In this document: piece after piece, positions 36,131-59,400 of the stretch
Numbering within the stretch: the stretch's first letter is position 1
How the letters are laid out: every line of letters starts with the position of its first letter
Origin: Synechococcus sp. PCC 7335
Lineage (GTDB): Bacteria > Cyanobacteriota > Cyanobacteriia > Phormidesmidales > Phormidesmidaceae
Direction: 5' to 3'
Assembly (NCBI RefSeq): GCF_000155595.1
Contig: NZ_DS989904.1
Coordinates: 814,477 to 878,476, forward strand
DNA: 64,000 bases
Notes under the pieces: model-generated
What the model was told of the DNA's origin: nothing
Databases searched by the model: none
Seen by the model: the letters and a program-made list of their open reading frames with translations, nothing else
Position numbers and translations under genes: made by a program

Positions 36131-36844
36131 CTAGCGCTTGCGAAGCACCAGAAAAGAAATCGCGCCAATCACTACCCCACCTAAAAGTAAAATCAAGAGA
36201 GGTCGCTGCCCAGCATCTGATACATTATCGCTTGCAACCGCATCGGGCGGTGCTGTTGCGTCCGATACAGCTGTATCTGAAGTAGATACGTCATCTAGAG
36301 CAGATCCGCCTGACGCTGCTTCTGAACTATCCTGCGGTGGAGCCGCAGCAGAATCGGCGGGTGATTCAGACGGAGACGCTCCGGCGGCAACCGTCACATC
36401 AAAGGCTAGCTCAAAAGGAGAAAAGTCATCTGATTGCTTGGGACTGCCGCTGACGGCAATCGTGTATAAACCCACGGTCGGGAAAGTTAGATTAGCTCCG
36501 GGGATACCCTGATAGCCTTCGCTGGCCACGGCACTAAGCGAAGGCGATAGAATCGGCTCTGAGCTCGGTTGTCTAGGCTGGGTGTAAACAGTCATTTGGC
36601 AGTCGCACTCGGCTAGCTGAATGGTCTCGCCGCCTCGCCTAGTCAGCGCGACCCAAGCTAATACCTCCTCTCCGGCCCGGGGAGTGTCGTCAGGTTCTAT
36701 ATGCAACGTGCCACCGACTTCATTGGAAATTTCTACCTGGTGAGCGGTGGCTAGCTGAGAAAAAGGCACTGGAACTGTGTTAAGGCAAACTGTCGCAGCA
36801 GTCATTAGAGCTAGAGCGAACGCTCTGGATTTTAGGTGGGGCAT
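36131..36844 (-). CDS. Exported protein with C-terminal anchor, next to SafE gene
   Basis: Protein of 237 residues. The start at 36844 is preceded by AAGGAGAA on the minus strand. An N-terminal signal helix (FALALMTAATVCLNTVPV) precedes an extracytoplasmic beta domain (HQVEISNEVGGTLHIEPDDT, VLAWVALTRRGG, GLYTIAVSGSPKQ). A long Ser/Ala/Asp-rich linker (about 155-205) leads to a C-terminal helix (LLILLLGGVVIGAISFLVLR) with basic tail. It overlaps the end of the SafE-like gene by 65 bp, so the two are coupled. The binding domain may sense or carry a metal or other ligand; this is inference from context. Confidence 0.65.
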   Translation of the reverse strand: MPHLKSRAFALALMTAATVCLNTVPVPFSQLATAHQVEISNEVGGTLHIEPDDTPRAGEEVLAWVALTRRGGETIQLAECDCQMTVYTQPRQPSSEPILSPSLSAVASEGYQGIPGANLTFPTVGLYTIAVSGSPKQSDDFSPFELAFDVTVAAGASPSESPADSAAAPPQDSSEAASGGSALDDVSTSDTAVSDATAPPDAVASDNVSDAGQRPLLILLLGGVVIGAISFLVLRKR

Positions 36845-38150
36845 AATTTTCTCCTTGAGAGAGCAGATTCCAGGCTAAGCGCGATCGCACTAACAAAACC
36901 AACAATACAACCCCCGTCAGCCCGCCAACCATAGCCTGATTTTGCCAAGTTAGAGCCAGCGCCCCCCAGTAGTGAGAGCCGACAAGGATCGCATGGCCTG
37001 CGGCTAACAGCAAAGCAGGAAGACTTAGCAGATGCAGCTTTCGCCAGCGACTACCTAACGTGATCTGAGCTTTATTAAAACTCGTAATCGCAGCGGGCAG
37101 CATAAGTAGAATAGCAACTAGACCCAGTACCACACCTGTCTGATGCTGCGGCAGCATAAACTGCACCGCTTGCCAGTTCCACTGCCAGGCATGACTTACC
37201 ATATGCAACACATGCAATAGGCTGAGCGCAAATGCCCCGACCCCCAGCAGTCGCCGATAGTGCAAGAGTCCGGACCAGAGACGACTTATCGGTCTAGCGA
37301 TCAGCGCTAAGGTCAAGCAGACAATCGCCACATGCCCACTGTAGTCAGTCGTCATGTCACCCGTTCGCAGCAGCAGTAAGATGCCAATGACTACGGTAAT
37401 CCAGCCACCCAAACGAAAGAGCTGCGATCGGCGATCTTGACTTAGCCGAGACGCTGTTAGGCCCACTGCCACCATCGCCGGCAATGTACCTAGCCCAAAA
37501 GCTAGCATCACCGCCGCGCCTCCAAGCGCATTCTGGGTAGCCGCTGCACGAAGTTGACCTGTGTACAGAAATCCACAGGGAATTAGCCCCCAAAGCAATC
37601 CCAGAGTAAGCGGCATAATCGCCTGATGCCAGCGAGCAACTCGGTTCATAGACGCATTAATTTGCTGGTGTAGCCGCTGCTGTTTAGCCGGATGCAAAAG
37701 CGGCAGACTTGGCAAGAAGCCCGGACGCGCCTGAGTCAGACCAAACCAGATCAGCAAAATACCCGTTGCTAAAGAAACCAGCCGCCTAAGCGTAGAGCCC
37801 ACCCCAGCAATCTGCCCGCCTGCGGACAGCACAGAGCCAAGTGCCCCAATTCCCATGCCTACTAAGGCATAGCTTAACAGCCGACCTAGATTGAGTAAGA
37901 GGTGAAAAGCCACCTGCTGGCGCCAGCTGCTAGAAAGCGCTTTAGCAGTCAAGTCAGCGCTTGAGCCAGCAGTCTTCTGTCCATTCGTTTTCAGTCCATT
38001 CGCTGAGGACGAACTTGATGAACTCCCTGACGAAGTCCTTACAGACAGAGCAAAGGCAGTGGCCACCGGGCCGCACATACCGACACAGTGCCCAAAGCTT
38101 CCAAAAAAGCCTATGGCCGCAGTCAACCATAGATCTAAAGAAGTTGGCAT
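36780..38150 (-). CDS. SafE/UreH-like transporter fused to ferric-reductase-like domain
   Basis: Protein of 456 residues with about 11-12 membrane helices. The first half has the GHCVGMCGPVATAFALS motif (about residues 21-37), typical of the sulfite exporter TauE/SafE and UreH-like family that includes copper-related proteins. The second half (after about residue 290) has the paired-His pattern of ferric-reductase-like transmembrane domains: LLHVLHMVSHAW and ALLLAAGHAILVGSHYWG. A fused transporter plus heme-binding reductase suggests reduction-coupled metal handling. It is followed, overlapping by 65 bp, by an exported anchored protein and preceded by a His-rich lipoprotein. Cu or Fe as substrate is inference. 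Confidence 0.7.
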   Translation of the reverse strand: MPTSLDLWLTAAIGFFGSFGHCVGMCGPVATAFALSVRTSSGSSSSSSSANGLKTNGQKTAGSSADLTAKALSSSWRQQVAFHLLLNLGRLLSYALVGMGIGALGSVLSAGGQIAGVGSTLRRLVSLATGILLIWFGLTQARPGFLPSLPLLHPAKQQRLHQQINASMNRVARWHQAIMPLTLGLLWGLIPCGFLYTGQLRAAATQNALGGAAVMLAFGLGTLPAMVAVGLTASRLSQDRRSQLFRLGGWITVVIGILLLLRTGDMTTDYSGHVAIVCLTLALIARPISRLWSGLLHYRRLLGVGAFALSLLHVLHMVSHAWQWNWQAVQFMLPQHQTGVVLGLVAILLMLPAAITSFNKAQITLGSRWRKLHLLSLPALLLAAGHAILVGSHYWGALALTWQNQAMVGGLTGVVLLVLLVRSRLAWNLLSQGENYAPPKIQSVRSSSNDCCDSLP

Positions 38151-40149: not shown

Positions 40150-40971
40150 CTATTGAGTAGGTTTATAGCCAACAACCGTAAATCCGGTAATGGCACTGAA
40201 AAACATTCCTTCCTTATCCGCCTGCTGAAGATCGCTTAGCCAAGCTGAAATTTGAGCGCTCAGCTGTGGCATCTGTTCTTTTGCTCGGGTGGCAGCAGGC
40301 CCTAATCCATAAAGCTGATTGGCCGTCGAGAAGTCTGTTAGCAGCAGGGTGGAGGTATCTGCGACGGTGATATTTTCGAGCCCAGCATGGTGAAAGAGTC
40401 GGTATAGCTCTCCGCCTGTAAAGGTATGACGTATTGCTTGATCAAAATGAGGATTGAGAATTTTTCGAGTGAGCGCCCGATTAGGATGATCAACAATCAG
40501 CGTATCCCAGTCTGGCTCTCTAACCAAAACCCGCCCTTTGGGTCGAGTGACCCTAACCATCTCGGCTAGAGCTTGCTGACGGTCTTCTATATGCATAAAT
40601 AGTCGGTCAGCACGGCAGCCGTCAAAACTGTTGTCTAGCATATCTAAATGATGCACATCTCCAACTTGAAACGTCAGCGAGAGGTCACCTGCTCTAATAC
40701 GATGACGAGCTTCCTTGATTAGGGCAGCGCTACAGTCTAGACCGACAACTCGACCATCCGGGCCTACCCGCTCAGCTAGGACGGCGGCATCTTCTCCAGT
40801 GCCGCAGCCAACGTCTAGGAGAAACGCCCCTGGCGCTGCGCCGAGTAGATCATACGACTTGCGCTTGTATCGCTGCATTTCAGATTGTGCTGTTGCGGTG
40901 TCTAGATAATCGATGAAGGATGCTGGTTTGTCTGCATCAATCTGACTCCAATTAAGTGATGTGGAATTCAT
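40150..40971 (-). CDS. SAM-dependent methyltransferase at the end of the siderophore operon
   Basis: Protein of 273 residues. Class I methyltransferase fold: LLDVGCGTGEDAAVLAERVG (motif I, SAM binding), GRVVGLDCSAALIKEARHR, FQVGDVHHLDMLDNSFDGC and KGRVLVREPDW. It lies 61 bp downstream of the NRPS gene on the same strand. It may be a tailoring enzyme (for example O- or N-methylation of the catecholate) or an unrelated passenger. The motif call is sure; the substrate is unknown. Confidence 0.8.
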   Translation of the reverse strand: MNSTSLNWSQIDADKPASFIDYLDTATAQSEMQRYKRKSYDLLGAAPGAFLLDVGCGTGEDAAVLAERVGPDGRVVGLDCSAALIKEARHRIRAGDLSLTFQVGDVHHLDMLDNSFDGCRADRLFMHIEDRQQALAEMVRVTRPKGRVLVREPDWDTLIVDHPNRALTRKILNPHFDQAIRHTFTGGELYRLFHHAGLENITVADTSTLLLTDFSTANQLYGLGPAATRAKEQMPQLSAQISAWLSDLQQADKEGMFFSAITGFTVVGYKPTQ

Positions 40972-41032: not shown

Positions 41033-44000
41033 TTAAGCCTCTAGATGGGCTGCGATCGCTCGGGCTATTATTTGCGAATACTCTCCTGTCAGTAGCTGCC
41101 CATGGGTCGTATCAATGTTGTAATTTTTGATCGAGCCGGTGACAAAGGGCTGCCATTGTCTATGAGTGAGAGTGGCATCTGTTCGGCCGTGGCTGGCTGT
41201 GAAGAAGATAAGATTGCCGTTGTATGGATCGGGCGTGGGTGCTTGTTGAGCCATTTGAATGTTGTATCGGGTGATATCTAATAAGGTGTTTTGCCTAAGC
41301 AGATCAAGGTGAGATCCTAGGTTGCTTTGCAGTTGTTGAGGTCGGTTATTATCCTCTTTGCCGGCTATCTGCTTTGAGGGCAACGAGGCTTGTCCGGTTG
41401 CCTGACGGAGAAGCTCTAGGACTTCTTGTTCGGAGTGGCGATCGCGCCTTTTGATGCAGTGTCCAGGATATGCATCTAGTAAAATTAACTGCTCAATGTT
41501 GTTGCCTTGCTGCTGTAGTTGGGTTGCGATCGCCTGAGCAACCATCCCGCCAAAAGACCATCCTAATAAGCGATACGAACCTTCTGGTTGAACCTGACGA
41601 ATCATTGCCAGATATCTCTCCATCATCTGTTCCCAACTGTCTTTAGAGATGCCTTGCGAGAGAGATTCTAAAGCCAGCGCCCCAGCATCCAAGTAAGGAG
41701 ACTGTAAGCCATACAGGGAATGCTGAGCTCCCAGATGTTTGGCTAAACTCATGTAGCACCAGCTAATGCCAGCAGCAGGGTGTATGCAAAATAGAGGTTG
41801 ATTGCCTTCGGTAATAGGAAACAAAGGAGAGAATAAGGTATCGCCAGTGCTTGAGCCAGTAGAGAGAAACTGACGACCACCAGCGCCCTCAACCTCCGAA
41901 CTGCTAATGTCTGAATTCAACGCCTTCGCTAGGGCTGCGGCTGTAGGATGGCGGAAAATAGTTGAAACTGAGATTTCACGATCTAGCTTTGTGCTAAGCC
42001 AGTTGGTCGCTTGGATGGTCTGTAATGACTGGCCGCCCAATTCAAAGAAATCATCTTGTACAGTGAGTCCCTGCTGCCCCAAAATGTCTTCCCAAGTACG
42101 AAGAATTACAGCTTCTAAAGAGGATGCGGCGTTTTCGCGCTGTGTGATCCATTTGGGTGAGCAGCTGTGTAGTGCGGTTCGATCTACTTTCCCTGACAAT
42201 GTTTTAGGTAGGGCCTCTAGAAAGTTGAATCCGGCTGGGATAACTGCCGCAGGTAACCTTTCACTCAGATGCTGCCGCAGCGTTCGAACGGGTGGATGAG
42301 GCGCTTTAGCAACCAGATAGGCACAGAGGCGCTTGATCCCTTCTGGCAGGTGATGACCAACCACAGCCGCTTCTCGGATACCTGGTATTGTCAACAGCAC
42401 AGACTCAATCTCAGCCGGGTTGATTCGATGCCCACTGATCTTGAATTCCGCATCAAGACGACCCGTAAAAACGAGCTGACCATCCGGGCGGATAAACACC
42501 TGATCGCCAGTCCGATAGGCTCTAGGTTTACCTGGAAGCTGATGCAAGCAGACAAAGCAATCTGCGGTTAGCTGAGATTTTCCTAAGTATTCTTTTGCCA
42601 GCGTCGGCCCTAATATACACAGCTCACCTCGCTGTCCCGGAGTTGCTGGATATCCAGCGGCATTGATCACCGCAATGTCTATGCCCGGTAGGGGGCGACC
42701 AATAGGGACCTTGCCCTGATCGACGCATCCAGGCTCTAGCGTAGCTACAGTTGCAACAACGGTGGCTTCACTTGGGCCATAAGTATTGAGCAGCCTCACC
42801 TCATTGCCCACAACTGAGTGCCACTGCTTAATCCGCTCAGACTGGGCTGCTTCTCCACCAATGATCACCATTCGTAAGCTGGTAGGCAAGCTTTCCTGAT
42901 GGTTACTCAAACAAAACGCTAGCTCATGCCAAAAGGCGGTAGGAAGGTCGAGAATGCTAATGTCTTTTTGTTGACAGACCTTTAGAAAATGAGGAAGAGA
43001 TTGGAGCATTGATTCCTCACGCAGCACCAGGGTAGCGCCGCTACAAAGGGTCAAGAAAATCTCTTCTACGCTGGCATCGAAGTGTAGCGAAGCGAATTGC
43101 AAAACCCGATCTTCAGGCTGAATCTTATATCGCTGTAAGGCTCCACTGACAAAATTAGACAGCGCCCGATGATCGATCACCAGGCCTTTAGGTACTCCCG
43201 TAGAGCCGGAGGTATACACGACATAGGCGGGGCTATTTTGAGCTGGAATCGTTGAAAGATCAGAGGTTACAACCTCTGCCATTGAAAGGTCTGTTGTTGG
43301 CAAATATTCTAAAGGATTCAACAGAATGGTAGGCGGCAACCCTGAAATAGAGTGAGGTTGATACTCTGATGTGGTGATCAATAGAGCAGGCTGTGCATCT
43401 TTGAGTAGATGACTATTGCGGGCGACAGGGGCTGTCGGATCAAGAGCTAGATAACCCGCACCAGAAAACAATACGCCTAGAATGGTGATGATCGCTTCCC
43501 AGCTACGGGGTAGATAAATCGCTACGATCTGACCTGGTTTGACGCCTGCATTCGTCAGCCTCACGGCTAAATTGTGAGCCGCTGCTAACAGCTCGCAATA
43601 AGACATACTCACTTCACTGGCTACTATAGCTGTGGAATGAGGCCGTAAGGAAACCTGTTCTATCAATCTGGTGAGTACAGGCTGGGGCGTTGATAAGAGT
43701 GGCTCACCCCTGATTATGTTTCTCTGAGAAATTATGCTTCTTTGGGAACTGTCTCTCTGAGAATTGTGTAATTCCGTATTGTGTAGTTCCGTGGCGTTCA
43801 GTGCTGTAATGCCTGTTCTTGTAACGAGTTGGGCGGCTGAAATCACCTGTTTTGGATGATTAAGTACTGAGTGTAGCGTTGCTAGCCAGTTCTGTTGATG
43901 TTGAGTGAGTTCATTAAGAGAATAACAGTCTGGATTAGCGTCTAGCTCAAGTGTGAGCCTCTTTCCCCCAGCTTGGGCGCGAAAATTGATAGCGATATCT

Positions 44001-45169
44001 TCTACTGGCCCTGCAGAAATGTTATGCACAATGCCTGCTGTCTCGCCAAAGTGGATGGCATAGTCAAAAGGCATAATATTTACAATCGGGCCGAAAAGTC
44101 GGCGTCCTCCACCTACCCGCTTCAGATCGCGCCGTAGCTGCTCATAACGGTAGCGGCTGTGAGGGCGAATACTTCGAAGCTGTTGCCTGATTGGTTCTAC
44201 CAGTTCTAAAAAGCAAATGTCAGGACTGATCAATACTCGCAGCGGCACAATATTCATCACCATGGCTGGAACTCTTAGGGACGCTGATCCTAGCCGGCCC
44301 ATCATCGGGACGCCGAGGGTGAGATCGTCAGCGCTTGTGGCCTGATGTAGATATACAGCGGTAACCGCTAGCAGCAGATCCGACCAGGCAGCGCCGTTCT
44401 GTTGTGCAACTGTTTTCAATTGTTGAAATACCTCAGATGGCAGCGCGCTTTTCTGGCGGAGGCACACGTCGCTGGCAGGCATGGGTTTACAGCTCAAGCT
44501 GACGGGCTCAGGTGCGCCTTCTAAAGCCTGTAGCCAGAAGCTGCGATCGCGCGCTTTCTGTTCAGACTTTTGATAGACAATATCTTCTTCTATCACAGCC
44601 CGTAAGCTGGCAAAAGGAGAAAGAGAAACCGGCTGCCGCTGCTTTAGGCGCGTGTAAATTTCGGCGGCTCGCCGCAAGAGTAGAGAAGACCCGTAGCCAT
44701 CTATTGCAATATGGTGAATACGTTGATACCAGAAGTGGCGATCGCTCGCTACTCGGATGAGGGCCTGAGCAAAGAGGGGGTTTGCGCCGAGATGAGTCTG
44801 CTGGCTCAGGTCTTGTCTCATCCAGTTCCAAGCTGCCTGCTCAGCATGATCATCACCACTTAGATCGAGATGTGTCAGCCTCCACTTTAAATTTTCAGCA
44901 ACAGACTGAACTGGGCTCTGGTCTGCAACGGTAAAGCATAGGTTAAGGGTTTCGGCTTCTGCCACCATTTGGCGCACCGCTCGCTCAAATAAAACAGGAT
45001 CGAGATCTCCTATAAGTTCTAAGCACTCTGCAGTGTTGTAAATAGCACTTTGTGGATTGAGCTGCTGCCCTAGCCAAATTCCTTTTTGAGCAGCAGATAG
45101 GGGCCAGTTGAGTTGATTTTCTTTAGCTGTATTTTTCTTAGCTATATTTTTCTCAGCTACATCGGTCAT
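41033..45169 (-). CDS. Catecholate siderophore NRPS, one module C-A-T-TE
   Basis: Protein of 1378 residues resembling EntF/DhbF in layout. Condensation domain with HHIAIDG (about 152-158). Adenylation domain about 490-990 with [11 protein letters not shown] (about 651-661), NTYGPSE and the A10 lysine in TLSGKVDR. Carrier domain with GGQS (Ser about 1048). Thioesterase with GWSFGG (Ser about 1205), LLDAYPG and a late His in THGQLLTG. Specificity residues aligned to GrsA read D-A-E-D-I-G-T-V-V-K, unlike EntF serine (D-V-W-H-F-S-L-V-D-K). The acidic E/D pair suggests a basic amino acid, probably lysine. The N-terminus and the C-A linker (about 460-495) carry short tandem repeats ([11 protein letters not shown]). 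It should join DHB from EntB to its amino acid. Confidence 0.88.
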
Positions 45170-45232: not shown

Positions 45233-46156
45233 CTACTTTCGAGACAGGAGCTGACTCCAGGCTGAGATTGTTGGTTGCTCTGCAAGGTCGGCAAAGCTGA
45301 CCTCAGCGCCCTTACGTCGCCAGTCTTCTACCAAGCTCATCAGGCGAATAGAATCTAACCCCGAATCCAACAGATTCTCTTCAGTACTCACCTGCAGCGG
45401 CGGCAGCTGTAATAATTCACCAAGCTGCTGCCTCAAGACCTGAGTGACTGAAACGGGAGAGAGCAACTCAGATAGTGGCATTTCTGCACTGTTTAATCCT
45501 GTATGATTAGCACTTACAGAATTCGACAGCATTTCAATCACCGTTTGGTTCGGTAACGTAATGCCACAGCGCTGAGCGACATAATTCATCGCCATATGGT
45601 GATAGTCCACAGAAAAGTCAGCAATAGCATCTCCTACCAAGAAGGGTTGAATATCATTCATAAATGCATCACAAGCCGTTGCTAGACAACCGATATGACC
45701 GTAAACCCCGCAGATGATCAGCTGGTCTCGGCCCTCTTGCTGCAGCAACGTTTGCAGCTGTGTCCGCTGAAAGGCGCTGTATCGCCATTTTGTTAAGACG
45801 CGATCGCCGCCGCTGGGCATCAGTACTTCTGCAATAGCCTCTTGTCCAGGATGGGCACTCAATCCAGGCCCCCAAACATCAGTCAGCAACCCGCGATCTT
45901 CCTCAGATTGTTCTACTATCTGAGCGGTATAGAAAACTGGAATTCCTAATGACTGGCAGCATGCCTTTAAAACAACAATATTTTGAAGCAGTTCTGTAAT
46001 CGGAGATTGCTGGGCATCAAAGAAATTTAGAAAATAGTCCTGCATGTCATGAATGAGCAGTGCTGCCCTGGGAGCCTGAGCTTCCCAGCTCGCACGGCTT
46101 GAGGGGAACTCTGTCGCTGTAGGCATGCGGTAAGCAGGAAGTTGAGGAATGGTCAT
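45233..46156 (-). CDS. entB: Isochorismatase / aryl carrier protein (EntB/DhbB)
   Basis: Protein of 307 residues, two domains as in EntB (285) and DhbB (312). The isochorismatase domain (about 1-215) shows RAALLIHDMQDYFLNFF (Asp), TKWRYSAFQRTQLQTLL (Lys), and GVYGHIGCLATACDAFMNDI, with a Gly at the catalytic-Cys neighbourhood as in EntB-type enzymes (not the Cys hydrolase form). The C-terminal aryl carrier domain has ENLLDSGLDSIRLMSLVEDW with the phosphopantetheine Ser (about 269). It makes 2,3-dihydro-DHB from isochorismate and carries DHB for the NRPS. It sits 63 bp upstream of the NRPS gene, same strand. Confidence 0.9.
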   Translation of the reverse strand: MTIPQLPAYRMPTATEFPSSRASWEAQAPRAALLIHDMQDYFLNFFDAQQSPITELLQNIVVLKACCQSLGIPVFYTAQIVEQSEEDRGLLTDVWGPGLSAHPGQEAIAEVLMPSGGDRVLTKWRYSAFQRTQLQTLLQQEGRDQLIICGVYGHIGCLATACDAFMNDIQPFLVGDAIADFSVDYHHMAMNYVAQRCGITLPNQTVIEMLSNSVSANHTGLNSAEMPLSELLSPVSVTQVLRQQLGELLQLPPLQVSTEENLLDSGLDSIRLMSLVEDWRRKGAEVSFADLAEQPTISAWSQLLSRK

Positions 46157-46255: not shown

Positions 46256-47914
46256 CTATAACCGAGCCCTTAGCGCTTTCTTATCGACTTTGCCTGCGCC
46301 AGTTTTGGGTAGGGCCGCGAGCCATTCTAGCTGGTCTGGAATCTTGTAATGGGCTAAGCCGCGATCGCGCAAAAAAGCTTTCACCTGGTCGATCTCAATG
46401 CTGTTGTCTCCTATCGAATCATTTGAAGAAACATCGTTTTGCGCGACTACAAAAGCGCCAATACGCTCTCCTAAAAAGGGATCTGGCATGCTGACAACAG
46501 CCGCAGCGCAAATATTGGGATGAGTCAACAGATGCTGTTCAATCTCTTTACTGCTGATCTTTTCGCCGCCTTTGTTGATTTGCTCCTTGGCACGGCCCTC
46601 TACAATGATCTGCCCAGACGGGCTTAGCCGGACAAGATCGCCCGTTCGATAAAATCCATCCGGTGTAAATGCCCTTTTGTTGTGTTCAGGGGCTTGGTAG
46701 TAGCCCCGGATGGTGTAAGGGCCTCGGGTCAACAAATTCCCAGTTTCTCCAGGAGAAACCGGCTGATCTAGATTGTCCACAATCAGAATCTCATCGGCGG
46801 GAGAAATCGGTAGACCTTGAGTATGCAAAATCACCTCTTCTGTATCGTCAAGCCGCGTGTAGCACACTAGCCCTTCTGCCATGCCAAATACCTGTTGCAA
46901 TCGACAGCCCAGAATAGGTGAAATACGTCTGGCAACTTCTGGAGCAAGCGGGGCTCCTCCAACCTGCAATATCTGCAAACTTGAGAGATCGTGACTGCGG
47001 GTGGCGGTAGCATCTAGCCAGATAGGAACCAGCGGCGGAACCAACGCGGTGATAGTGACTTGTTCACGCGCAATTAGTGCAAAAGTTTCGTCAGGATTGG
47101 GGTGATGAGCGAGGACGACGCTTCCTCCAGCGTAAAGTGTACCAAGACTACCTGGAGAGCTCAGTGGAAAATTGTGGGACACTGGCAAAGCCGCTAGATA
47201 GACGCTCTCAGGCGCTAGCGCACAGATTTTGGCGCTAGCTCTGACGCTGTATAGATAGTCGGCGTGGGTTCTGGGAATGAGTTTGGGCGTACCGGTGCTG
47301 CCGCCTGAGAGCTGAAAAAAAGCAACAGCTTCAGCTTTGGGCTCAGATAGAGCAAGCGGCTGTAGGTAGAGTTGATCGAGGGCCACAAATTCCTGTTCCT
47401 GACCAACAACGATAATGTGTTGTAAACTACCGTGCTCAGGCATCAGGGTACGCGCCAGAGCTCGATAGTCAAAGTGTCCATCGCTATCAGCAATAATGTA
47501 AGCAGCCGCCTCAGTTTTTAATAGAAAGCTGTGAATTTCTGTGCGACGATGGGCCGGCAGTGCTAGGACGGGCAGTGCCCCTAAGCGGGTGAGCGCAAAG
47601 AACACGGCAAAGAATTCTGGAATATTGGGGAGTTGAACAATGACGCGATCGCCTGCCGTAATTCCCAAAGATTGTAACCCCGCCGCCAGCTGATCGGCCC
47701 GCTGATTCAGGTCTGCGTAGCTCCAGCGGTCGTTTCCACTGACTAGGGCCGTCCGCTGAGCATAGCGCTGTGACTGCTGCCGTAGCATTTGGCCAAACGT
47801 CTGAGGCTGCCAATAGCCTAAATTGCGGTAGCGATCGGCATATGCTTTGGGCCAGCGCGGACAGTCTGCCTGCAAACCCTCTTTCTGTAAGGGTTGAAAA
47901 AGTTGTTCAATCAC
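46256..47914 (-). CDS. entE: 2,3-Dihydroxybenzoate-AMP ligase (EntE/DhbE)
   Basis: Protein of 552 residues. Adenylate-forming enzyme: [20 protein letters not shown] (phosphate loop), [16 protein letters not shown] (the His-Asn motif of aryl-acid ligases, contacting the DHB hydroxyl), [15 protein letters not shown] and [11 protein letters not shown] (catalytic lysine). Length and motifs match EntE/DhbE. It activates DHB and loads it on the EntB carrier domain. Its start overlaps the end of entC by 4 bp. Confidence 0.92.
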
Positions 47915-49296
47915 AGTCTTGCCTCCAACAGATGCTCTAGGTCCAGCGCTTTGAGCATGGTGCGAAATTTAGCAGACGTTTCAGCCAGCTCCTTTGCAGC
48001 GGTCGATCCAGCTACGATACCGGCCCCTGCATATAGCCGCAGATGGCGACCTTCCGCCTCGCCACAGCGAATGGTCACAGCCCACTCGCCATCACCCTGA
48101 CTATCAACCCAGCCCACAAGACCCGTGAAGTAACGCCGCGCAAACGGTTCAATCGCGTGAATGGCCGAATAGGCACATTGGGTAGGCGCACCGCAGATGG
48201 CAGGCGTCGGGTGTAAGGCCAGGGCCAGAGAAAGGGCACAAGTCTCTGAGTTTTTCAATGTGCCTTGCAGATAGGTAGACAGATGGATCATGCTGTCGGT
48301 CTGGAGAATGTCAGGGGTTGGGGGCACTGCTAGGTCATGACAAAACGGGCGCAGTGCCTCTGCCATCGCCTCAACCACCACCGCATGTTCGCGCCGATCT
48401 TTATCAGAGTTCATGAGCGCTTCAGCCCGCTGTTGATCAATGATTGGATCACCACTACGAGGCGCTGAACCCGCTAATGGATTGGCTTCTACCTGCATTC
48501 CCCGCCGCCGAACTAACAGTTCAGGGCTAGCACCAACCAAGTGATGGCGCGAGTGCTGAAGAAAAGAGTGTGTATTTTTAGAATCAAGCTGTTTTACGAA
48601 TGCAGATTGCTTTTCTGGAGCCAGCGTCTTCTCTGATGCGAGCTGTTTCTCTGATATAAACGACTGCTTTGGCGCAGACTGCTGGCAGCGGGCTAAATTA
48701 ACAAGATAGGTGTAGCCGTAGCGGTTAGAGCGAGCTAGTCCGTTTAATAATTCGCCTAGATGAGGCATTTGAGCAAATGACAATTCAAGCGAACGAGATA
48801 GAACAATCTTAAGTAGCTCCGATTGCTGAATGTACTCCAGCGCTTGTTCAACCCCCTCCATGTAGCTAGCAGGCTCTGGGAGCATCTGTAATCTACAAGC
48901 GTTAGAGGCCGATGCTTTAGGTTTAGGAGCAACACTCATATTTCTGTCATTTCTCAGCGGGCCTGCTCGGTGAAGACGATCGGGCATAAACAGGTGAACG
49001 TTGGCACTGTCATCAAAGGGAATCGCCCCCACTAATGGCAGCTTTGATAACCCGCGCTGAGATTGCCGATCGAACAGTGCGACCGCCTGCTTCGGTAGAT
49101 CAGGGTAAGCCAACGCTCCTTTTTGAGCGGGTAAAATGTCTCGAATACCTTGGGCCAACATAGTTTGGTGAGGTGTCGCCAAGAAAAACGATGTCTCGTG
49201 GTCGGAGGCCTCTAGCAGCGCTGTGGCACTGTTTAGCTGGCTTTGTGACTGGCTTTGCGGCTGATTGGGGAAAATCTTTTGGGCAGTATTTTTCAT
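47911..49296 (-). CDS. entC: Isochorismate synthase (EntC/DhbC)
   Basis: Protein of about 461 residues from the ATG at 49296 ([11 protein letters not shown]), which has AAGAG 6 bases ahead; earlier starts (ATG 49323, TTG 49356) are possible. Chorismate-utilising enzyme signature in order: [99 protein letters not shown] and [20 protein letters not shown]. It converts chorismate to isochorismate. Odd: an insertion of about 40 residues rich in E-K-x-x and Ser (around [20 protein letters not shown]), made of degenerate short repeats. It overlaps entE by 4 bp. Confidence 0.92.
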
Positions 49297-49366
49297 CAGA
49301 ATCTCTTGTAAGGGCCTTAGCATATTCTTTGGAGGGTGATGGATAGGTTGTTGCAAAAAATGAGTA

Positions 49367-50149
49367 TCAAGCGCCTAATGTCGCTCCGCCATCTACTCGC
49401 AAATCGTGCATCGTAATATGACAAGCCTGTTCAGAAAGCAAAAACAAAATGCCTTCTGCAATATCTTTGGGACTGGCTATTTTCCCTAAAGGGATACCTG
49501 TTCTAAATGTGTTTAGCGATCCTTTTATGACAGCGTCCTTAGCGGTGTCGTCAGTCCAGAACATGTGCTGCATAGGCGTATCTGTAGAGCCAGGAGAAAC
49601 GACATTACAGCGGATACCAGAGCTAGCAAGTTCTAAGCCTAGACACCGGGTAAAGTGAGTCGCAGCCGCTTTAGACGCAGCATAGGCAGACATCTCTTGG
49701 CGGGGTACACTAGCCGCGTTGGAGCCAACGGTTACAATTGCACCGTTTTTACGAGGAATCATGGCCTGTGCGACACTGCGAGAAATGTTAAAGACGCCTG
49801 TTGTATTCACCGCAAAGGTGCGGCTCCAATCTGTGTCAGTCAAGGAAACAACAGGCTTTGGCACAAGAACGCCTGCTACATTCACCAGTCCGGCAATGGC
49901 TCCTATATTTTTCTCGATATGATCAACAATCTTCTTTACCGCTAGGCTATCGCTAACGTCAACTGGGTAGGGCTCAAACTGCGGCGAAGCTAATTCTATT
50001 CTCAAGGATTCCAGCTTTTCGGGCTGGATGTCGAGTCCGATAACGGTTGCGCCAGCTTGGAGGAGCGATCGCACAACCGCCGCACCAATGCCCTGAGCTG
50101 CCCCCGTTACTACAATGAGTTTGTCAGTAAAGTCAAACATATATTTCAC
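49367..50149 (-). CDS. entA: 2,3-Dihydro-2,3-dihydroxybenzoate dehydrogenase (EntA)
   Basis: Protein of 260 residues, a classical SDR: MFDFTDKLIVVTGAAQGIGA (nucleotide motif GAAQGIG), NVAGV, VTVGSNAASVPRQEMSAYAA and YAASK (Tyr-Lys pair), and VSPGSTDTPMQHMFW near the C-terminus, the usual EntA/DhbA pattern. It oxidises 2,3-dihydro-DHB to DHB with NAD+. It lies 12 bp downstream of the DUF2470 gene and 10 bp before the entC extended frame. Start could also be the second Met (residue 4). Confidence 0.9.
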   Translation of the reverse strand: MKYMFDFTDKLIVVTGAAQGIGAAVVRSLLQAGATVIGLDIQPEKLESLRIELASPQFEPYPVDVSDSLAVKKIVDHIEKNIGAIAGLVNVAGVLVPKPVVSLTDTDWSRTFAVNTTGVFNISRSVAQAMIPRKNGAIVTVGSNAASVPRQEMSAYAASKAAATHFTRCLGLELASSGIRCNVVSPGSTDTPMQHMFWTDDTAKDAVIKGSLNTFRTGIPLGKIASPKDIAEGILFLLSEQACHITMHDLRVDGGATLGA

Positions 50150-50161: not shown

Positions 50162-50572
50162 TTATGAGTCATCTATTGCCGCGCTCCACCCTAGCTGGGC
50201 GCGACTTTCCGTAATCATTTCAGCCAACAGACACCGCAGAGACAGCACGCCTTGAGCCGGTTCTAAAAAATCAATTCGTAAGGACTGGCTCTGGTTAGGT
50301 CCTGTGACCTCAAGCGTCATCCCAGCGGCATCTAACTGAGCAATGCTTGCCTGTTCTGCCCAATCCATTGCCCGATCTTTGGGAGGCACAGCCTTGGCGC
50401 AGGCCAATATGTCCTCAAGGTGATCTTGGTTTAAATGCCGGGTGATTGCCAGCAGTAATTTATCAGTTAGGGGAGCGCCATTTCGCTGGCGATCCGTCTT
50501 TGAAGTTGCCGGCTTTGAATTTGCTGGCTTTGAGGTTGCCGTCTTTGAGGTTGCCAGCTTTGAATCTGTCAA
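50162..50572 (-). CDS. DUF2470 protein in the siderophore operon
   Basis: Protein of 136 residues. The start is TTG at 50572: GGAGG (50579-50583) lies 6 bases ahead and a stop codon closes the frame just upstream. The N-terminal 25 residues are five repeats of S-K-x-A-T (15-bp DNA repeats). The DUF2470 domain follows: LLAITRHLNQDHLEDILACA, LDAAGMTLEVTGPNQSQSLR, IDFLEPAQGVLSLRCLLAEM. DUF2470 is also the C-terminal part of HugZ-like heme proteins. Position between entA and the MFS gene suggests iron-linked function; the role is unknown. Confidence 0.8.
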   Translation of the reverse strand: MTDSKLATSKTATSKPANSKPATSKTDRQRNGAPLTDKLLLAITRHLNQDHLEDILACAKAVPPKDRAMDWAEQASIAQLDAAGMTLEVTGPNQSQSLRIDFLEPAQGVLSLRCLLAEMITESRAQLGWSAAIDDS

Positions 50573-50637: not shown

Positions 50638-51981
50638 TTACTGTTCTTTAGTGCTTACTTTCAGGCGTTCTAAATCTTGGGAATGCTCGATTTCAGGGGT
50701 TAGATCTGGGCTAAAAATCACTTTTGTTGCCAACCAAACACTCGCTAGGCAAACAACAAAACCAATGAGAAAGACGCCAACATAGCCTAGGGCGGCGGCA
50801 ATAAATCCACTGAATGCAGGCACCCCAACATGGTGACCCAGCACGTACACCGACGATTGCAGCGTATAATCGCTCCCTGCTGTTGCTGGGCGGCTTTTGT
50901 CCATCATCACGGTGAATAGCGCTGTACTGGCAACACTGCGAGCAAACACTTCTCCAGTACTAACGGTATAGAGCACAAGCGGATCGCGAATACCGATTGC
51001 AGGCAGGGTGAGTGCAGCAACTGCGATCGCCTGCAATAGCCCGAACAAAATCAGCGCGCGTCTACGACCCAACGGTTCAATCAGTACGCCTGCTAGTAGC
51101 GAACCGATAATAGCCGCACCCGATCCTACAATCCCAGTCATCCAGCCGATATCCGCCATCGACAGGCCCAGATCTACCAGCAATGGACGAAACATAGTTG
51201 CGGCCATACTGCTACCGGTGGCATAGAGCAAGATAAAGAACAACCACAACAGTGACTGCGGTCGCCTCACAAAACTCAGCAGCGTCTTGAAATAGTCCAA
51301 AACAGATTTTCTCGCACTGAGGAATCGACCAGAACGGGCAATACCTGCTGTTCTCTCTAGCGGTCGGGCTCTGGTCGGCTCCCGATAGGACAGCAGGGGC
51401 AGCAGTGCCAGCAAAACGCCCCCCGCCAACAGCCATACGCTGACCTGCCAGCCCAGCTGATTCAAGGTGAGGAGCAAAACGCCGCCGCCCAAGATCCCTC
51501 CCATGGCTCGCCCGGCGCTTTGAATACCGTTCCCCCAGCCTCGTTCATGGGGATCTAGCAGTCCGATGGCCAAAGCATCAGTGGCAATATCTTGAGTGGC
51601 AGCTAGCGTTACCACTAAAAACACGCCCTGGAAGAGTAAAACCTCATTGTTGTTTAAAGTGTCGAGGGAGGCACAGGCAACTAGTGTGAGAGCAAGCAGA
51701 ATCTGAGTGCCTATAATCCAAGATTTATAGTGTCCCCATCTTCGAGAGCCGTAGCGGTCTACCAGTGGAGCCCAAAGAAATTTTAGAATCCAGGGTAGGG
51801 TAAGCAATCCCATCAAGCCAATGACCTGTAGTGACGCGCCCTGCTGGCGTAAGAAAATAGGTAAGGCTCGAAAGAAAAAAGCAGCGGGTAAAAACTGAGA
51901 GGTATAAAGACAGCTCAACAACACAAACTTTCTGCGTGGAGAAAGAGTCTCTTTAGCTTTTAATTGAACACTTGGGGCCAT
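50638..51981 (-). CDS. MFS transporter, RhtX/FptX- or AmpG-like, siderophore export or import
   Basis: Protein of 447 residues, about 12 helices. The N-terminal region LPIFLRQQGASLQVIGLMGL and PWILKFLWAPLVDRYGSRRW, followed by ATQDIATDALAIGLLDPHER, is the pattern of the AmpG / RhtX-FptX branch of MFS. RhtX and FptX import ferric siderophores, while EntS exports enterobactin; direction cannot be settled from motifs. Located between the receptor gene (109 bp upstream) and the DUF2470 gene, same strand. It fits transport of the siderophore made here. Confidence 0.8.
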   Translation of the reverse strand: MAPSVQLKAKETLSPRRKFVLLSCLYTSQFLPAAFFFRALPIFLRQQGASLQVIGLMGLLTLPWILKFLWAPLVDRYGSRRWGHYKSWIIGTQILLALTLVACASLDTLNNNEVLLFQGVFLVVTLAATQDIATDALAIGLLDPHERGWGNGIQSAGRAMGGILGGGVLLLTLNQLGWQVSVWLLAGGVLLALLPLLSYREPTRARPLERTAGIARSGRFLSARKSVLDYFKTLLSFVRRPQSLLWLFFILLYATGSSMAATMFRPLLVDLGLSMADIGWMTGIVGSGAAIIGSLLAGVLIEPLGRRRALILFGLLQAIAVAALTLPAIGIRDPLVLYTVSTGEVFARSVASTALFTVMMDKSRPATAGSDYTLQSSVYVLGHHVGVPAFSGFIAAALGYVGVFLIGFVVCLASVWLATKVIFSPDLTPEIEHSQDLERLKVSTKEQ

Positions 51982-52090: not shown

Positions 52091-54823
52091 TCAAAACTCG
52101 TAGCTAACCGAGCCAAGCACCGTAAAGGGATCGCCGGGCTCAATGCCTCTGGTTCGAGTGCGCGGTGTACCCTCAATAAAGCTCACATCGAACAGGTTCT
52201 GAAAATTGAGGCCAAATTTCCAACGATTTCGCTCGTAGGAGACAGCGGCGTTGGTCAAAAAGTAACTATCTAGATCAAAGCTGTTGCTCAAATCGCCTTG
52301 GCGCTCGCCGACCCAGTTCAGCCCGAGGCCAAAGCCTAAGCCTGTCAGGTCTCCTGATTGAATTTCATAGTTTGTCCATAGGCTGGCGCTGTGTTCTGGC
52401 ACACCTGGCAATGGGTTGCCTGTCTCAATGGAACTGTCTTCTGTTAGCGCTGAATCAATGTAGGCGTAGGACGCAACGACATTCCAGGCTGGTGAAATTT
52501 CTCCGATCACATCTAGCTCAATGCCTTGGCTCTGTTGCTCTCCTGTCGCTACCGAAAATCTGGGATCGTTTAGATCGGTCGTAGCAACATTTTGTTTGGT
52601 CAGATTAAAGTAAGCGAGAGTCGCGAGCAGATTGCCCTCAAACAGTTCTGTTTTGAGACCCACCTCAAACCCCTCGCCTTCTTCGGCTGCTAGCGGTTCG
52701 CCATCAACCGTGACGGCTGCACTAGGAAAAAAAGAACGAGAGTAGTTTGCATAGAGAGAAAGATTTTCAATCGGCTGATAAACCAGCCCTATTCTGGGGC
52801 TAAAGGCATCTTCGGTTAGATCTACCTCGGTAGTAACACCTCGACTAGTAGTTACTGTTGTTTGCTCCACCGTTTCGTAACTAAAGCCTGCCACCAAGAT
52901 CAGATTGTCTAGCAGGTCAATTTGGTCTTGTGCATAGATCTGCAGACTATTGGTATCAATGCGATCGCTTCTAGTGGGTACATCACCGCGCTCGGGTCGA
53001 GGTGGCGTCCCATAGACAGGATCAAAGATATTAATCGGCGTTCTTGACGGTCCTGGCGAAAAATCAGTAAAAGAATCTGAATCCAAGCTGTAACGAGCTA
53101 AATCAACCCCAACTAGCAAAGTGTGATCAACCGGCCCAGTAGAAAATTCACCCACCACATTAGTCTGCAGGGCCAATGTTTTGTTATTGACATCTTGCTC
53201 GGCAAAGACCCGATTAAGATCGCCTGTGGCCTCATCGAGTCCGCCAATAAAGGGGAAACTCAAGGTGGCGCTAATGTCATCACTTTGGTTGAGATAGCGA
53301 AACGCATTGCGGATTTTCCACGTGTCGCTAAAGCGATGTTCTAGATCGTAGCCGACGTTAGAAAACTCACTCGAAATGCTGTCGTCGGGTTCACCGAGGA
53401 TGCGATCGCGAGGAATATCGGCAACCTCATCGCCCAAGGCTACCAGCCCTGGATTGAAGGGGCGATCGTCATTCAGATACTCTAGCTGGAGATTGAGATC
53501 GGTGCGATCATTAATTCGCCAGGCTAGATCTGGCGCTACAAAGAAACGCTCAGATCTCTCATCAAAATCTTGAAATTCATTTTCATTTTGATAGACGGCA
53601 TTGAGTCGATAAAGTAGACGGTTGTCTTCTGTGAGAGGGCCTGAGATATCAATCTGGGGACGCACTGAGCCGCGACTATCGGTTTGCAGCCCGATCTCGT
53701 AAAACGGTTGCTCCAAAGGCGCTTTAGAAACAATATTGAGGATGCCGCCTGGCTCACTTTGGCCAAATAGAACTGAAGCAGGCCCCCTTAGCACCTCAAT
53801 GCGTTCGATATTGGCAATCTCTGGAAATCCTTGCCCAGCCGCATCTCCGTTGTCATTAGGGCTATACAGCCGAAACCCATCTCGATACACAGAGACCCCG
53901 TTAAACCCTCTCAGACTGATCTGAAAGCCTCTACCCTCAGTCGAATTAACCGATGCCCCGCTGAGATTACGCAAGGCATCTCCTAGATCCCTCACCTGCT
54001 GATCCTCTAATACCTGCCGAGGAATCACCTGAACTGAAGCAGGCGTTTCTAGAATAGGCGTATCGGTGCGGGTGGCGCTGCTAGCATTGGGGACAAAGTA
54101 ATTATCTTGTACTTGCCCGCCCGTCACGATAATTTGGATAGCGTCATCTGATCCTGAACTGCCTGGGACTGGGTCACCTGCGATCGCATCTTCGCTAGGA
54201 TCTGGCATAGGTTCTGGCATAGGATCTGGCATGGAATCTTGAGCGGTAGAGGCTCTAGCAATCGCCCTGACTGTCAGCATCGTTGCAACCGTTGTCACAG
54301 ACAGGGTGGGCGGCGCTTCAGTCCCTGTGATGGCAATGCGTACCTGGTTATCAGGTCGATTGTTGATATCAATGAAGGCAATATCTGCATTGGGCGCACT
54401 GATAGCAAAGCGCTCCGCCTCAGGCAGGTTCAAGATGGCATTGGGAATATCTAGAATTGCCGCATTGCCTGCCACAGACAGCTCGGGCGTGATTAGTTCG
54501 CCCGTCGTTTCTAGCTGTAGCGCGATTCCTGCTGCGGTCTCTTCTAGCTGAATATCTGTTATTTCCACGACTTCAGCGGCTGGCTCAGCTAGATCAGACT
54601 GCGTTAGCCATCTCTCTCGTAGCCATCTATCTGTTGTAACCGTTGGGGTACTGGCCTCATCTGGCTTCGCATCTGACACTGTCATATCCATCGCTGAAGC
54701 ATTTTCTTTGAGTACGCTTTCACTTGCGATCGCGGCTGGTCCTAGCAGCAGCCCACAACCCGCCATCAGTTGGACTAACCAACCACCCCATCTCATCCGC
54801 GTCGCAGTCATGCTTACTTTCAT
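52091..54823 (-). CDS. AMIN-domain TonB-dependent siderophore receptor
   Basis: Protein of 910 residues. Signal peptide (MAGCGLLLGPAAIASES), then an AMIN domain (ITDIQLEETAAGIALQLETT to about residue 200), a Met/Pro repeat linker (PDPMPEPMPDP), a TonB-box-like AIQIIVTGG, and a plug (ETPASVQVIPRQVLEDQQVR, LSGASVNSTEGRGFQISLRG, IERIEVLRGPASVLFGQSEP). A 22-strand barrel follows and ends in the aromatic SVSYEF. The AMIN-plug-barrel layout is typical of cyanobacterial siderophore receptors and imports the ferric siderophore with TonB. A Fur-like box and a 22-bp direct repeat lie just upstream. Confidence 0.92.
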   Translation of the reverse strand: MKVSMTATRMRWGGWLVQLMAGCGLLLGPAAIASESVLKENASAMDMTVSDAKPDEASTPTVTTDRWLRERWLTQSDLAEPAAEVVEITDIQLEETAAGIALQLETTGELITPELSVAGNAAILDIPNAILNLPEAERFAISAPNADIAFIDINNRPDNQVRIAITGTEAPPTLSVTTVATMLTVRAIARASTAQDSMPDPMPEPMPDPSEDAIAGDPVPGSSGSDDAIQIIVTGGQVQDNYFVPNASSATRTDTPILETPASVQVIPRQVLEDQQVRDLGDALRNLSGASVNSTEGRGFQISLRGFNGVSVYRDGFRLYSPNDNGDAAGQGFPEIANIERIEVLRGPASVLFGQSEPGGILNIVSKAPLEQPFYEIGLQTDSRGSVRPQIDISGPLTEDNRLLYRLNAVYQNENEFQDFDERSERFFVAPDLAWRINDRTDLNLQLEYLNDDRPFNPGLVALGDEVADIPRDRILGEPDDSISSEFSNVGYDLEHRFSDTWKIRNAFRYLNQSDDISATLSFPFIGGLDEATGDLNRVFAEQDVNNKTLALQTNVVGEFSTGPVDHTLLVGVDLARYSLDSDSFTDFSPGPSRTPINIFDPVYGTPPRPERGDVPTRSDRIDTNSLQIYAQDQIDLLDNLILVAGFSYETVEQTTVTTSRGVTTEVDLTEDAFSPRIGLVYQPIENLSLYANYSRSFFPSAAVTVDGEPLAAEEGEGFEVGLKTELFEGNLLATLAYFNLTKQNVATTDLNDPRFSVATGEQQSQGIELDVIGEISPAWNVVASYAYIDSALTEDSSIETGNPLPGVPEHSASLWTNYEIQSGDLTGLGFGLGLNWVGERQGDLSNSFDLDSYFLTNAAVSYERNRWKFGLNFQNLFDVSFIEGTPRTRTRGIEPGDPFTVLGSVSYEF

Positions 54824-54890: not shown

Positions 54891-54934
54891 TCTGTCTCAA
54901 GCGGACTTTTTTTCTGTCTCAGGCGGACTTTTTA
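54891..54934. promoter_or_regulatory. 22-bp direct repeat, candidate AraC-type operator
   Basis: Copies tctgtctcaagcggactttttt (54891-54912, quoted in part: tctgtctcaagcggactt) and tctgtctcaggcggactt (54913-54930 and onward) agree at 20 of 22 positions and are exactly adjacent. The period is two helical turns. They lie 68-111 bp upstream of the receptor start, where an AraC-family activator such as the neighbour gene would bind. Confidence 0.6.
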
Positions 54935-55133: not shown

Positions 55134-56183
55134 TTAACGCTGCTGCATTTGATAGGCTTTAGGGCTGATTCCAAAGGTACGCCGAAAGGCCACACTAAAC
55201 GCTTCGGGGCTGGTATAGCCAACGCGCTGAGAAACACTCGCAATCGTGGCTTTAGGCAACAACAACAGCTGATGAGCCTGCTGCATTCGATAGATGTGTA
55301 AGTAACCAAATACAGTAGTTCCAAATACCTGACGAAACCCCTGCTTTAGCTTGCGGTCATTAATACCAACTTGATGAGCCAACTCCATGAGCTTTGGCGG
55401 ATTAGCGGCCTGGCTGAGCAAAATATCCCTGGCATAGAAGATTCGATCGACTTCCTCTTCTCTTAAGCCGGAAGCTAGATCAGGTGAAAGATCAGACGAC
55501 GCTGTCCGATAATGATGGTTCGACAATATTTGATCAAAATATAGACTGATCAACTCAGTGGCTTTGCCCTCAAGATATAGGCGCTGAGGTAGCCCACGAT
55601 ACGGACAGTTCAAGAGCTGTTGTACGGTCGCACTCATTACCGTAGTCATGGTGTGCGTTTGAAAGTAATCCGCTGAATCGCACTTGGCGATCGCTCTACC
55701 TAAAGGTCTCGGCAGTTGTTTCATCATCTCCCGGTCGGCCAAGCCAATGGCTTCAGGCTGAATATGCAGGTGAACCAGCAGCAGACGTTTGGCGGCATAT
55801 TCTATCGTCCGATCCGCGCTGCGTAATATTCCTAAACTTGCTTGCCCGGCCTGAAGCTGAATCGCTTGTTTAGCATTGGAACTGCGCCCCCGAATTTTCC
55901 CTTCAACGCAAAAACTCATTCCCAATGTGGTGGTACTACCCGAGGTTTTTTGGCTAACAACAGCTTTTTCTCGAAATTTTAAATCGTGAACCATTAGACT
56001 TAGCCCAGGACGCAGTTGCCAACGTTGGCTGAGGCCATCGCAAACTTGATTAGGCAACTTAGAAATTTCAGTGCAGTTAGAATCTCTTACCGACTGAACA
56101 TTATTGAGACTGTACTGTGGCGCTTCGTGCTTCAGAACCTGCAAGGATCCGCCAGTAGATTGAGCGAGATTATTTGACTGCAT
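55134..56183 (-). CDS. AraC-family regulator, PchR-like
   Basis: Protein of 349 residues. The C-terminal double HTH of the AraC/XylS family is clear: LMELAHQVGINDRKLKQGFR, QVFGTTVFGYLHIYRMQQAH and ASVSQRVGYTSPEAFSVAFR, RTFGISPKAYQ. The N-terminal ~230 residues form a sensor domain like PchR, which binds ferric siderophore and activates its uptake genes. Placed immediately upstream of the receptor gene (its start 1.36 kb before), in the same direction. A strong Fur-like box precedes it, so it is probably iron-repressed, and the direct repeat before the receptor is a good target for it. Confidence 0.85.
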   Translation of the reverse strand: MQSNNLAQSTGGSLQVLKHEAPQYSLNNVQSVRDSNCTEISKLPNQVCDGLSQRWQLRPGLSLMVHDLKFREKAVVSQKTSGSTTTLGMSFCVEGKIRGRSSNAKQAIQLQAGQASLGILRSADRTIEYAAKRLLLVHLHIQPEAIGLADREMMKQLPRPLGRAIAKCDSADYFQTHTMTTVMSATVQQLLNCPYRGLPQRLYLEGKATELISLYFDQILSNHHYRTASSDLSPDLASGLREEEVDRIFYARDILLSQAANPPKLMELAHQVGINDRKLKQGFRQVFGTTVFGYLHIYRMQQAHQLLLLPKATIASVSQRVGYTSPEAFSVAFRRTFGISPKAYQMQQR

Positions 56184-56474: not shown

Positions 56475-59400
56475 CTACTTCGCGACGCCCTCATTCAAGT
56501 CAGGTAAGTTAGGTTTTGATTCACCCAGCAAGGTTCCAGAAAATTCCCCATCATCGTTCCCGCCACCGTTCCCGCTGGCATCTATTTGAGCCTTCTTATC
56601 GACGGTAAAGCCTTTGATCACGATATAGAGAACTGGAACGATGAATAGGCTGAGGAAAGTCGCCACTAGCATCCCGCCGAAAACCGCCGTGCCTAGCGAC
56701 TGGCGACTGCCCGCGCCCGCACCCGTCGCAATCACCAGCGGGAAGATACTGCTCAGCGTAGAGATCGCCGTCATTAAAATTGGTCGCATTCTCTGCTGGG
56801 CTGCTTCTAGCGCTGCTTCTGTGATAGAGCGACCCTGGCAGCGCAGCTGGTTGGCAAACTCCACAATCAGGATCGAGTTTTTACTGGCTAGGCCAATCAG
56901 CATCACCAGTCCGATTTGGCAGTAGACATCGTTGGGCAAGCCGCGGATGGTCTGAGCAATCAGCGCCCCAAATACAGCTAGCGGCACCGCAAAGAGGATG
57001 ATCACCGGATCGACATAGCTTTCGTATTGAGCAGCCAACACTAGAAAGACTAAGGCAATACCTAGTCCAAAGATAATAGGGGCTTGATTGCCGCCTTCGA
57101 TCTCTTCTAACGCGGTTCCTGACCACTCATAGCCAAAGCCGGCAGGCAGCACCTGGTCGGCAACGTTTTCCATGGCGGTAATTGCCGCACCAGAGCTAAC
57201 CCCTGGCGCTGGGGCGCCGTTGATAGCGATCGAACGGAAGAGGTTGTAGTGGTTGATGGTCTGGGCACCCGTGGTAGCGGTAGTAGAAACCAGATTGCTC
57301 ATTGGTATTAGGTTACCGGTTTGCGATCGCACATACAGGTTGTTAATATCACTTGGCGTCGATCGATACTGCTGGTCGGCTTGTACATAGACTCGGTACG
57401 TCCGGCCCTGCAAATTGAAGTCATTCACATAGCGCGATCCTAGGTTGGTCTGAAGCGTGCTGAAGATGTCGCTAATGCTGACGTTGAGGGCTTTAGCTTG
57501 GTCGCGGTTGACATCGATAGCAATCTGCGGCGTGCTAGCAGCGTAGGTACTAAAGACATTTTGCAGCTGTGGATTTTGGTTAGCAGCACCCATAATGGCG
57601 CCCATACTATTGACCAAATCATTCAGCTCAGCATTACCGCGCCTGTCTTGAAGCTGAAATTCGAAGCCACCAAAGCTACTTAGGCCTTGGATAGCCGGTG
57701 GGTTCACTGGCAGGAGACGGGCCTTGGTACTGCTCATTAACGGTCCACGCACCCGGTCGATGATTTCGAAGGCGCTGGCATCCCGCTCTCCCCAAGGATT
57801 TAGCGTAGTAAAGATAACGCCGCTGTTGGCAGTATTACCACTAAAACCAAAGCCGCCAACTGCGAAGGTCGCTCTCACCTCTGGCTGAGCGAGCAGAATT
57901 TCTTCGGCTTCTGCCATGACTTCGCTGGTGTAGTTGAGCGAAACGCCCTCTGGGCCGCCAATAATGGTAATGAAGTAACCTTGGTCTTCATCTGGCAAGA
58001 ACGCCGAAGGGACAGTGGTATACAGCCATGCAGTCAGGACCAGTGAGGCGACAAAGGCAGCAATCACAACGGGCTTAAACTTGGTCAGCTTTTGTAGGGC
58101 GTTGCCGTAGCGATCACGTAGCCAATCGAGCGCATCGTTAAACGGGTTAAACAGCTTGGCTCGCCAGCCAGTCGGCTCTGATCTTGTGCGGAACAGTAGG
58201 CCAGAAAGCGTTGGGGTAAGGGTTAGTGCATTGAACGTGGAAATGGCGATCGCAAAGGCAATCGTCAGCGCAAACTGTCGGTACAGCGCGCCGGTTGTGC
58301 CTGGGAAGAAAGCAACCGGCACAAAAACCGCCATCAGCACTAGCGAAGTCGCAATCACCGCGCCCGTCAGCTCTCTCATCGCCTCGATTGCCGCCTCAAC
58401 CGGATTCAACCCGCGCTGATTAATCTTCGCGCTAATGTCTTCAACCACAACGATGGCATCGTCGACCACCATCCCGGTTGCTAACGTCAAGCCAAACAGC
58501 GTCAGGCTATTAATCGAAAAGCCAAACAGCTTCACGATTGCAAACGTCGCTACTAGAGAGACTGGAATAGTAATCGCTGGGACCACCGTCGTTCGCCAGT
58601 CCTGCAAGAAGATATAGATCACTAGTACGACCAGCCCAACGGCCTGAATCAGTGTCCACAGGACGCTTAGTAAAGACTGCTCTACGAACTCAGTCGTATC
58701 AAACCCAATGCCGTACTCCATCCCCGGCGGAAAGTCTGATGCTAGCTCGGCCATTCGCGCCTTCACACCTTGGGCTACCGCGAGGGCATTACTTCCTGGG
58801 AGCTGAAAGATACCTAGACCAATCGCTTCTTGCCCACGGAAGCGCAAGAACGAACTGTAGCGCTCGGCTCCGAGTTCTGCTCTACCGACATCTCGCAGCC
58901 GAATCAATTGGCCCGCCTCACCCGTTTGCAGCACCAGATCCTCAAATTCTTCTGGTGTTCGCAATCGACTTTCAGCTCGCAGGTCAATTTGAAAGTCTTG
59001 ATCGCTAGCGACAGGCGGTTGACCAATTTGACCGGCGCCGACCTGAATGTTTTGCTCTTGCAGGGCCAAGACTACATCATCCGCCGTTAAGCCTCGCCCT
59101 GCTAATTCTTGTGGATCGAGCCAGATCCGCATAGCATAGGTGCGCTCACCAAAGATCACAACGTTACCCACACCTGGCACCCTCTGTAGCGCATCTGCGA
59201 CGTACAGATCGGCGTAGTTACTTAAGAACGTGTCGTCGTACTGGTCGTCTTCGGTGTACAAGCTCATTGCCAGCAGAATATTGCTGGTCTCTTTAGAGAC
59301 GGTTACGCCTGTTTGATTAACAGTCTCTGGAAGCTGGGGTTCTGCAAGAGAGACTCGGTTTTGGACATCGACAGCAGCGATATCTTTATCGCGAGTTGAA

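Follow-up and report, generated by a model that had tools for sequence, protein, structure and literature searches.

A cyanobacterial gene cluster predicted to make a lysine-based bis-catecholate siderophore, with a conserved methyltransferase beside its synthetase

Which siderophore is made by a cluster that sets a nonribosomal peptide synthetase (NRPS) of a single module beside the genes for 2,3-dihydroxybenzoate (DHB)? The question is raised by a locus of Synechococcus sp. PCC 7335, analysed here within a 64,000-nucleotide stretch of the genome (the window; coordinates are positions in it unless stated otherwise). Judging from its sequence, the cluster most probably makes a lysine-based bis-catecholate, either bis-DHB-lysine acid or an amine-released form of it, and not enterobactin. 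Its features are given below; identities are to the syntenic cluster of Acaryochloris sp. 'Moss Beach'.

55134..56183, minus strand: AraC-family regulator (HTH_18; 53% identity)
54892..54931, minus strand: candidate AraC-regulator site, two tandem 22-bp repeats AAAGTCCGNNTGAGACAG, 5' of the receptor gene
52091..54823, minus strand: TonB-dependent siderophore receptor with an N-terminal AMIN domain (TIGR01783, 455 bits; 61% identity)
50638..51981, minus strand: MFS transporter, AmpG / RhtX-FptX-like (profile matches; 71% identity)
50162..50572, minus strand: DUF2470 protein (PF10615; 55% identity)
49367..50149, minus strand: EntA-like 2,3-dihydro-2,3-dihydroxybenzoate dehydrogenase (TIGR04316, 353.9 bits, cut-off 300)
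47911..49356, minus strand: EntC/DhbC-like isochorismate synthase (TIGR00543, 266 bits, cut-off 224.75)
46256..47914, minus strand: EntE-like (2,3-dihydroxybenzoyl)adenylate synthase (TIGR02275, 740 bits, cut-off 723.55)
45233..46156, minus strand: EntB-like isochorismatase with a C-terminal aryl carrier domain (Isochorismatase and PP-binding; 66% identity)
41033..45169, minus strand: single-module NRPS, C-A-T-TE, with a lysine code (Pfam, NCBIfam, code, catalytic motifs)
40150..40971, minus strand: class I SAM-dependent methyltransferase (Pfam Methyltransf_31/11/25)

The DHB pathway and the DHB-AMP ligase are complete beside the NRPS, all four DHB genes being recognised with Pfam and NCBIfam, and for each of EntE, EntC and EntA one or more specific NCBIfam models score above their curated cut-offs. 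The entB, entE, entC and entA homologues share the strand of the NRPS gene, which comes after them; the DUF2470, MFS transporter, AMIN-containing TonB receptor and AraC regulator genes are located farther upstream. The whole genome holds one condensation domain and one phosphopantetheinyl transferase match. The base composition of the cluster is that of its surroundings and so does not point to recent transfer.

About 2 kb from the siderophore cluster, 36780-38150 codes for a protein that combines a ferric-reductase-like domain with a membrane region resembling DsbD, which might tie it to iron reduction. Genes for an RND efflux pump and a membrane-fusion protein (56475-61252) adjoin the cluster on the same strand and could export the siderophore; no RND pump genes are found in the annotated stretch of the Acaryochloris cluster. 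Two ORFs without a Pfam match (31236-33767 and 33798-34181) lie in one frame with a short gap between them and could be a single interrupted gene.

Tandem AAAGTCCGNNTGAGACAG repeats are located about 70 bp 5' of the TonB receptor gene and are the sole exact matches in the genome, a statistic biased by the choice of the motif by eye after viewing the promoters of both the window and Acaryochloris clusters. In Acaryochloris, one exact and one degenerate copy are found at the same place. The repeats fit a candidate AraC-type activator site. A Fur-box scan of the window stayed at chance level (3 found vs 2.73 expected); one site with two mismatches is located upstream of the AraC gene and has no counterpart in Acaryochloris.

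The NRPS gene begins with ATG and codes for 1378 amino acids. Pfam places Condensation at aa 21-451, AMP-binding at 504-862, AMP-binding_C at 920-994, PP-binding at 1021-1084 and Thioesterase (PF00975) at 1124-1372. This domain order bears out the original prediction, made from the DNA letters, of a single C-A-T module ending in a TE. The HHxxxDG motif of the C domain is intact, as is the Ser-Asp-His triad of the thioesterase, whose GWSFGG, Asp and His motifs align with those of EntF.

The A-domain specificity code, read from a MAFFT alignment in GrsA numbering, is DAEDIGTVVK. In the GrsA fragment that set the numbering, the known GrsA code was recovered at the expected positions. The reading matches the one proposed earlier residue by residue, including the acidic Glu239 and Asp278 to which attention had been drawn. 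It is letter-for-letter the code of Myxococcus xanthus MxcG, and nine of its positions are the same in Acaryochloris, Skermanella stibiiresistens (L030), a Chloroflexales MAG and nearly all myxobacterial MxcG homologues found. Since A domains sharing these nine positions are only about 48-62% identical to the window A domain, the agreement is not due to chance. A text search of the literature for the ten-letter code matched no paper. The nine variable positions spell DVWHFSLVD in E. coli EntF and in the serine modules of Streptomyces aligned alongside, for EntF just as had been quoted beforehand.

The A-domain tree puts the NRPS inside the lysine clade, split from the serine (EntF), threonine and glycine types with an SH-aLRT of 100. 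The NCBIfam MxcG model scores 1372 bits against the NRPS (cut-off 2300, match confined to aa 19-1094), while the EntF model scores 578 bits, far under its cut-off of 2400. The identical MxcG code, the tree and the higher MxcG score all support a lysine-type code as originally proposed, and lysine specificity of the A domain is supported on the same evidence.

From this gene set a pathway can be proposed. EntC, EntB and EntA would make DHB, which EntE would adenylate and then load onto the aryl carrier of EntB. The A domain would put L-lysine on the NRPS's own carrier, and the C domain would acylate both its alpha and epsilon amines with DHB, as MxcG does; we know of no sequence signature that proves double acylation. 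The thioesterase would free N2,N6-bis-DHB-lysine as an acid, or pass the product to an amine as in cepaciachelin, and the methyltransferase beside the NRPS would probably add one methyl to it. The MFS transporter, TonB receptor and AraC regulator presumably serve transport and control in iron uptake. The predicted bis-DHB-lysine acid (azotochelin type) is well supported by the MxcG code, the position in the lysine clade and the intact TE in place of a reductase. The product class first suggested for this cluster is thus probably right, and published cepaciachelin clusters (PMC4906002, PMC13251462) support the underlying idea that a lysine C-A-T-TE synthetase with DHB genes gives azotochelin-type products.

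The methyltransferase gene starts 61 bp downstream of the NRPS gene and codes for the best conserved protein between the window and Acaryochloris (74% identity vs 58% for the NRPS). It is located directly downstream of the NRPS gene in Skermanella too, again with the higher identity (58% vs 42%). A tblastn search against all related loci collected found matches in Acaryochloris and Skermanella only; the myxochelin-type clusters compared had none, nor had the six betaproteobacterial lysine-TE ones, an absence that weighs less for some loci since contig ends cut their flanks. Since the pairing with the NRPS is kept in three distant genomes, this suggests that the methyltransferase acts on the siderophore, and because it is conserved beside the NRPS, better than the NRPS itself, the product may be a methylated azotochelin or cepaciachelin. 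Tentatively, and with slightly less than even confidence, we propose that the clusters of cyanobacteria and Skermanella are a subtype of their own, whose enzyme methylates bis-DHB-lysine, e.g., to a carboxyl methyl ester. If so, the siderophore would be neither azotochelin nor cepaciachelin, making it an unusual cyanobacterial DHB-lysine siderophore. Action of the methyltransferase on the product predicts a mass shift of +14.

By sequence, the methyltransferase matches a mixed set of PDB entries, most of them O- and N-methyltransferases of small molecules, from which no one substrate can be assigned. An AlphaFold model built from a two-row alignment had a mean pLDDT of 39.5 and was discarded. 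A relative with 43% identity is encoded on plasmid C of Trichormus variabilis (L120), inside a different, larger plasmid NRPS cluster.

The best surviving alternative concerns release: bis-DHB-lysine could be coupled to putrescine by the TE or a partner enzyme, with cepaciachelin, not azotochelin, as the main product. Cepaciachelin is the product of characterised lysine C-A-TE clusters, with azotochelin alongside in Methylophilus (PMC13251462), and in the TE tree the window TE groups weakly with those of betaproteobacterial lysine NRPSs (support 85/88). However, it sits there on a long branch with Acaryochloris alone beside it, the methyltransferase is absent from the betaproteobacterial clusters compared, and the gene set cannot separate the two. 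Trees of the C and A domains strongly pair the window protein with that of Acaryochloris and give poor support to any deeper placement among the MxcG and betaproteobacterial types. In place of the B. ambifaria and Azotobacter enzymes, the trees took in betaproteobacterial lysine-TE NRPSs and Eleftheria. Taken together, we regard cepaciachelin as a possible but rather unlikely main product.

Much less room is left for acylation of the alpha amine alone, after which the TE would link DHB-lysines through the epsilon amines left free, giving a cyclic trilactam that is the amide counterpart of enterobactin. EntF-type thioesterases can cyclo-oligomerise, and the sequence is formally compatible with such a product. 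However, MxcG, the closest reconstituted C domain, puts two DHB on both lysine amines, as seen when myxochelin biosynthesis was reconstituted in vitro (PMC9611931), and the known products of lysine C-A-TE clusters are doubly acylated lysine (PMC13251462); we consider the trilactam highly improbable.

An enterobactin-like serine trilactone, to which the C-A-T-TE order and DHB genes would also be suited, has almost no likelihood left and is rejected on the specificity code (DAEDIGTVVK vs DVWHFSLVDK in the EntF and Streptomyces serine types), with the A domain outside the serine clade and the EntF score equally against it, in agreement with the earlier statement that the product is not enterobactin. 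Myxochelin, formed by reductive release to an alcohol or amine, is just as implausible and is rejected on the terminal domain: MxcG is the closest C-A-T outside cyanobacteria, but the NRPS has a thioesterase in place of the NAD_binding_4 thioester reductase.

Bis-DHB-lysine thus stays the preferred product, and the same type of cluster is found elsewhere in cyanobacteria. Ten genes are syntenic on the plasmid pMB01 of Acaryochloris sp. 'Moss Beach' (53-74% identity). Its NRPS shares 58% identity with the window NRPS over nearly the full length (56% in the TE region), the C-A-T-TE order and the code, and both clusters contain the methyltransferase, adjacent to the NRPS, and DUF2470. The two clusters differ in location, a plasmid in Acaryochloris and a contig exceeding 4 Mb for the window cluster, and in the DUF2470 gene, which comes after the methyltransferase gene in Acaryochloris but separates entA from the MFS gene in the window. 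A 2022 paper described a siderophore cluster from several strains of A. marina, with paenibactin and myxochelin as the closest antiSMASH matches, no product named and homologues in an assembly of a stromatolite Leptolyngbya (PMC8949462). Set beside the pMB01 and window clusters by its description, it is probably of the same type. In our searches the NRPS appeared rare in cyanobacteria: 1 of 386 genomes sampled from the phylum and 1 of 65 from the family had a match (E <= 1e-180), each time the window's own, and the Acaryochloris match came from a plasmid collection.

psaA/psaB genes mark the genome as cyanobacterial, having matched Synechococcus alone in the control set. The genome has two such pairs, both outside the window (G000:C1:1644039-1648593 and 4451422-4455823), which may point to far-red light acclimation. 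Acaryochloris, with the same siderophore cluster, is also a far-red light dweller.

Among other known systems, MxcG shares the ten-residue code and is about 45-53% identical to the window NRPS in the C and A domains, but differs in its terminal reductase. Indeed, the MxcG homologues checked (L029, L033, L047) end in a NAD_binding_4 reductase, confirming for these what had been said of myxochelin synthetases, whereas the window, Skermanella and Eleftheria proteins have a thioesterase at the C-terminus. EntF resembles the NRPS in its C-A-T-TE layout but has a serine code and belongs to a separate A-domain clade. The Skermanella cluster shows the same order of entC, entE, entB, NRPS (C-A-T-TE) and methyltransferase genes and the same code, but includes ABC importer and siderophore-interacting protein genes, and its NRPS is merely 42% identical.

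Synthetases of the lysine C-A-T-TE kind are known from published cepaciachelin clusters of Burkholderia, Methylophilus and Chromobacterium. In Burkholderia ambifaria AMMD, which makes cepaciachelin, the DHB genes and a TonB receptor gene are accompanied by an A domain for DHB that stands alone and by a Cstarter-A-Te protein whose code is that of lysine (PMC4906002). Methylophilus and Chromobacterium ('chromobactin') homologues also make cepaciachelin, Methylophilus together with azotochelin and aminochelin (PMC13251462). With these clusters the window cluster shares the DHB genes, a separate DHB-AMP ligase and one lysine-code C-A-T-TE NRPS (PMC4906002, PMC13251462). The betaproteobacterial lysine-TE clusters that we compared, which are proxies and cepaciachelin-like by architecture only, differ from it in mostly having siderophore-interacting protein and FecCD-type ABC import genes, in the methyltransferase, which was not found in them, and in Ile at code position 331, Val in the window. 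By its gene content, the window cluster belongs to the azotochelin/cepaciachelin kind, as a cyanobacterial variant that has a conserved methyltransferase in addition. Anachelin was the only structurally characterised cyanobacterial catecholate according to a 2019 review (PMC6562677), and cyanobacteria were called understudied in a 2026 survey of peptide metallophores (PMC12971057). The cluster, common to a large contig and an Acaryochloris plasmid, offers a concrete structure prediction for a second kind of cyanobacterial catecholate.
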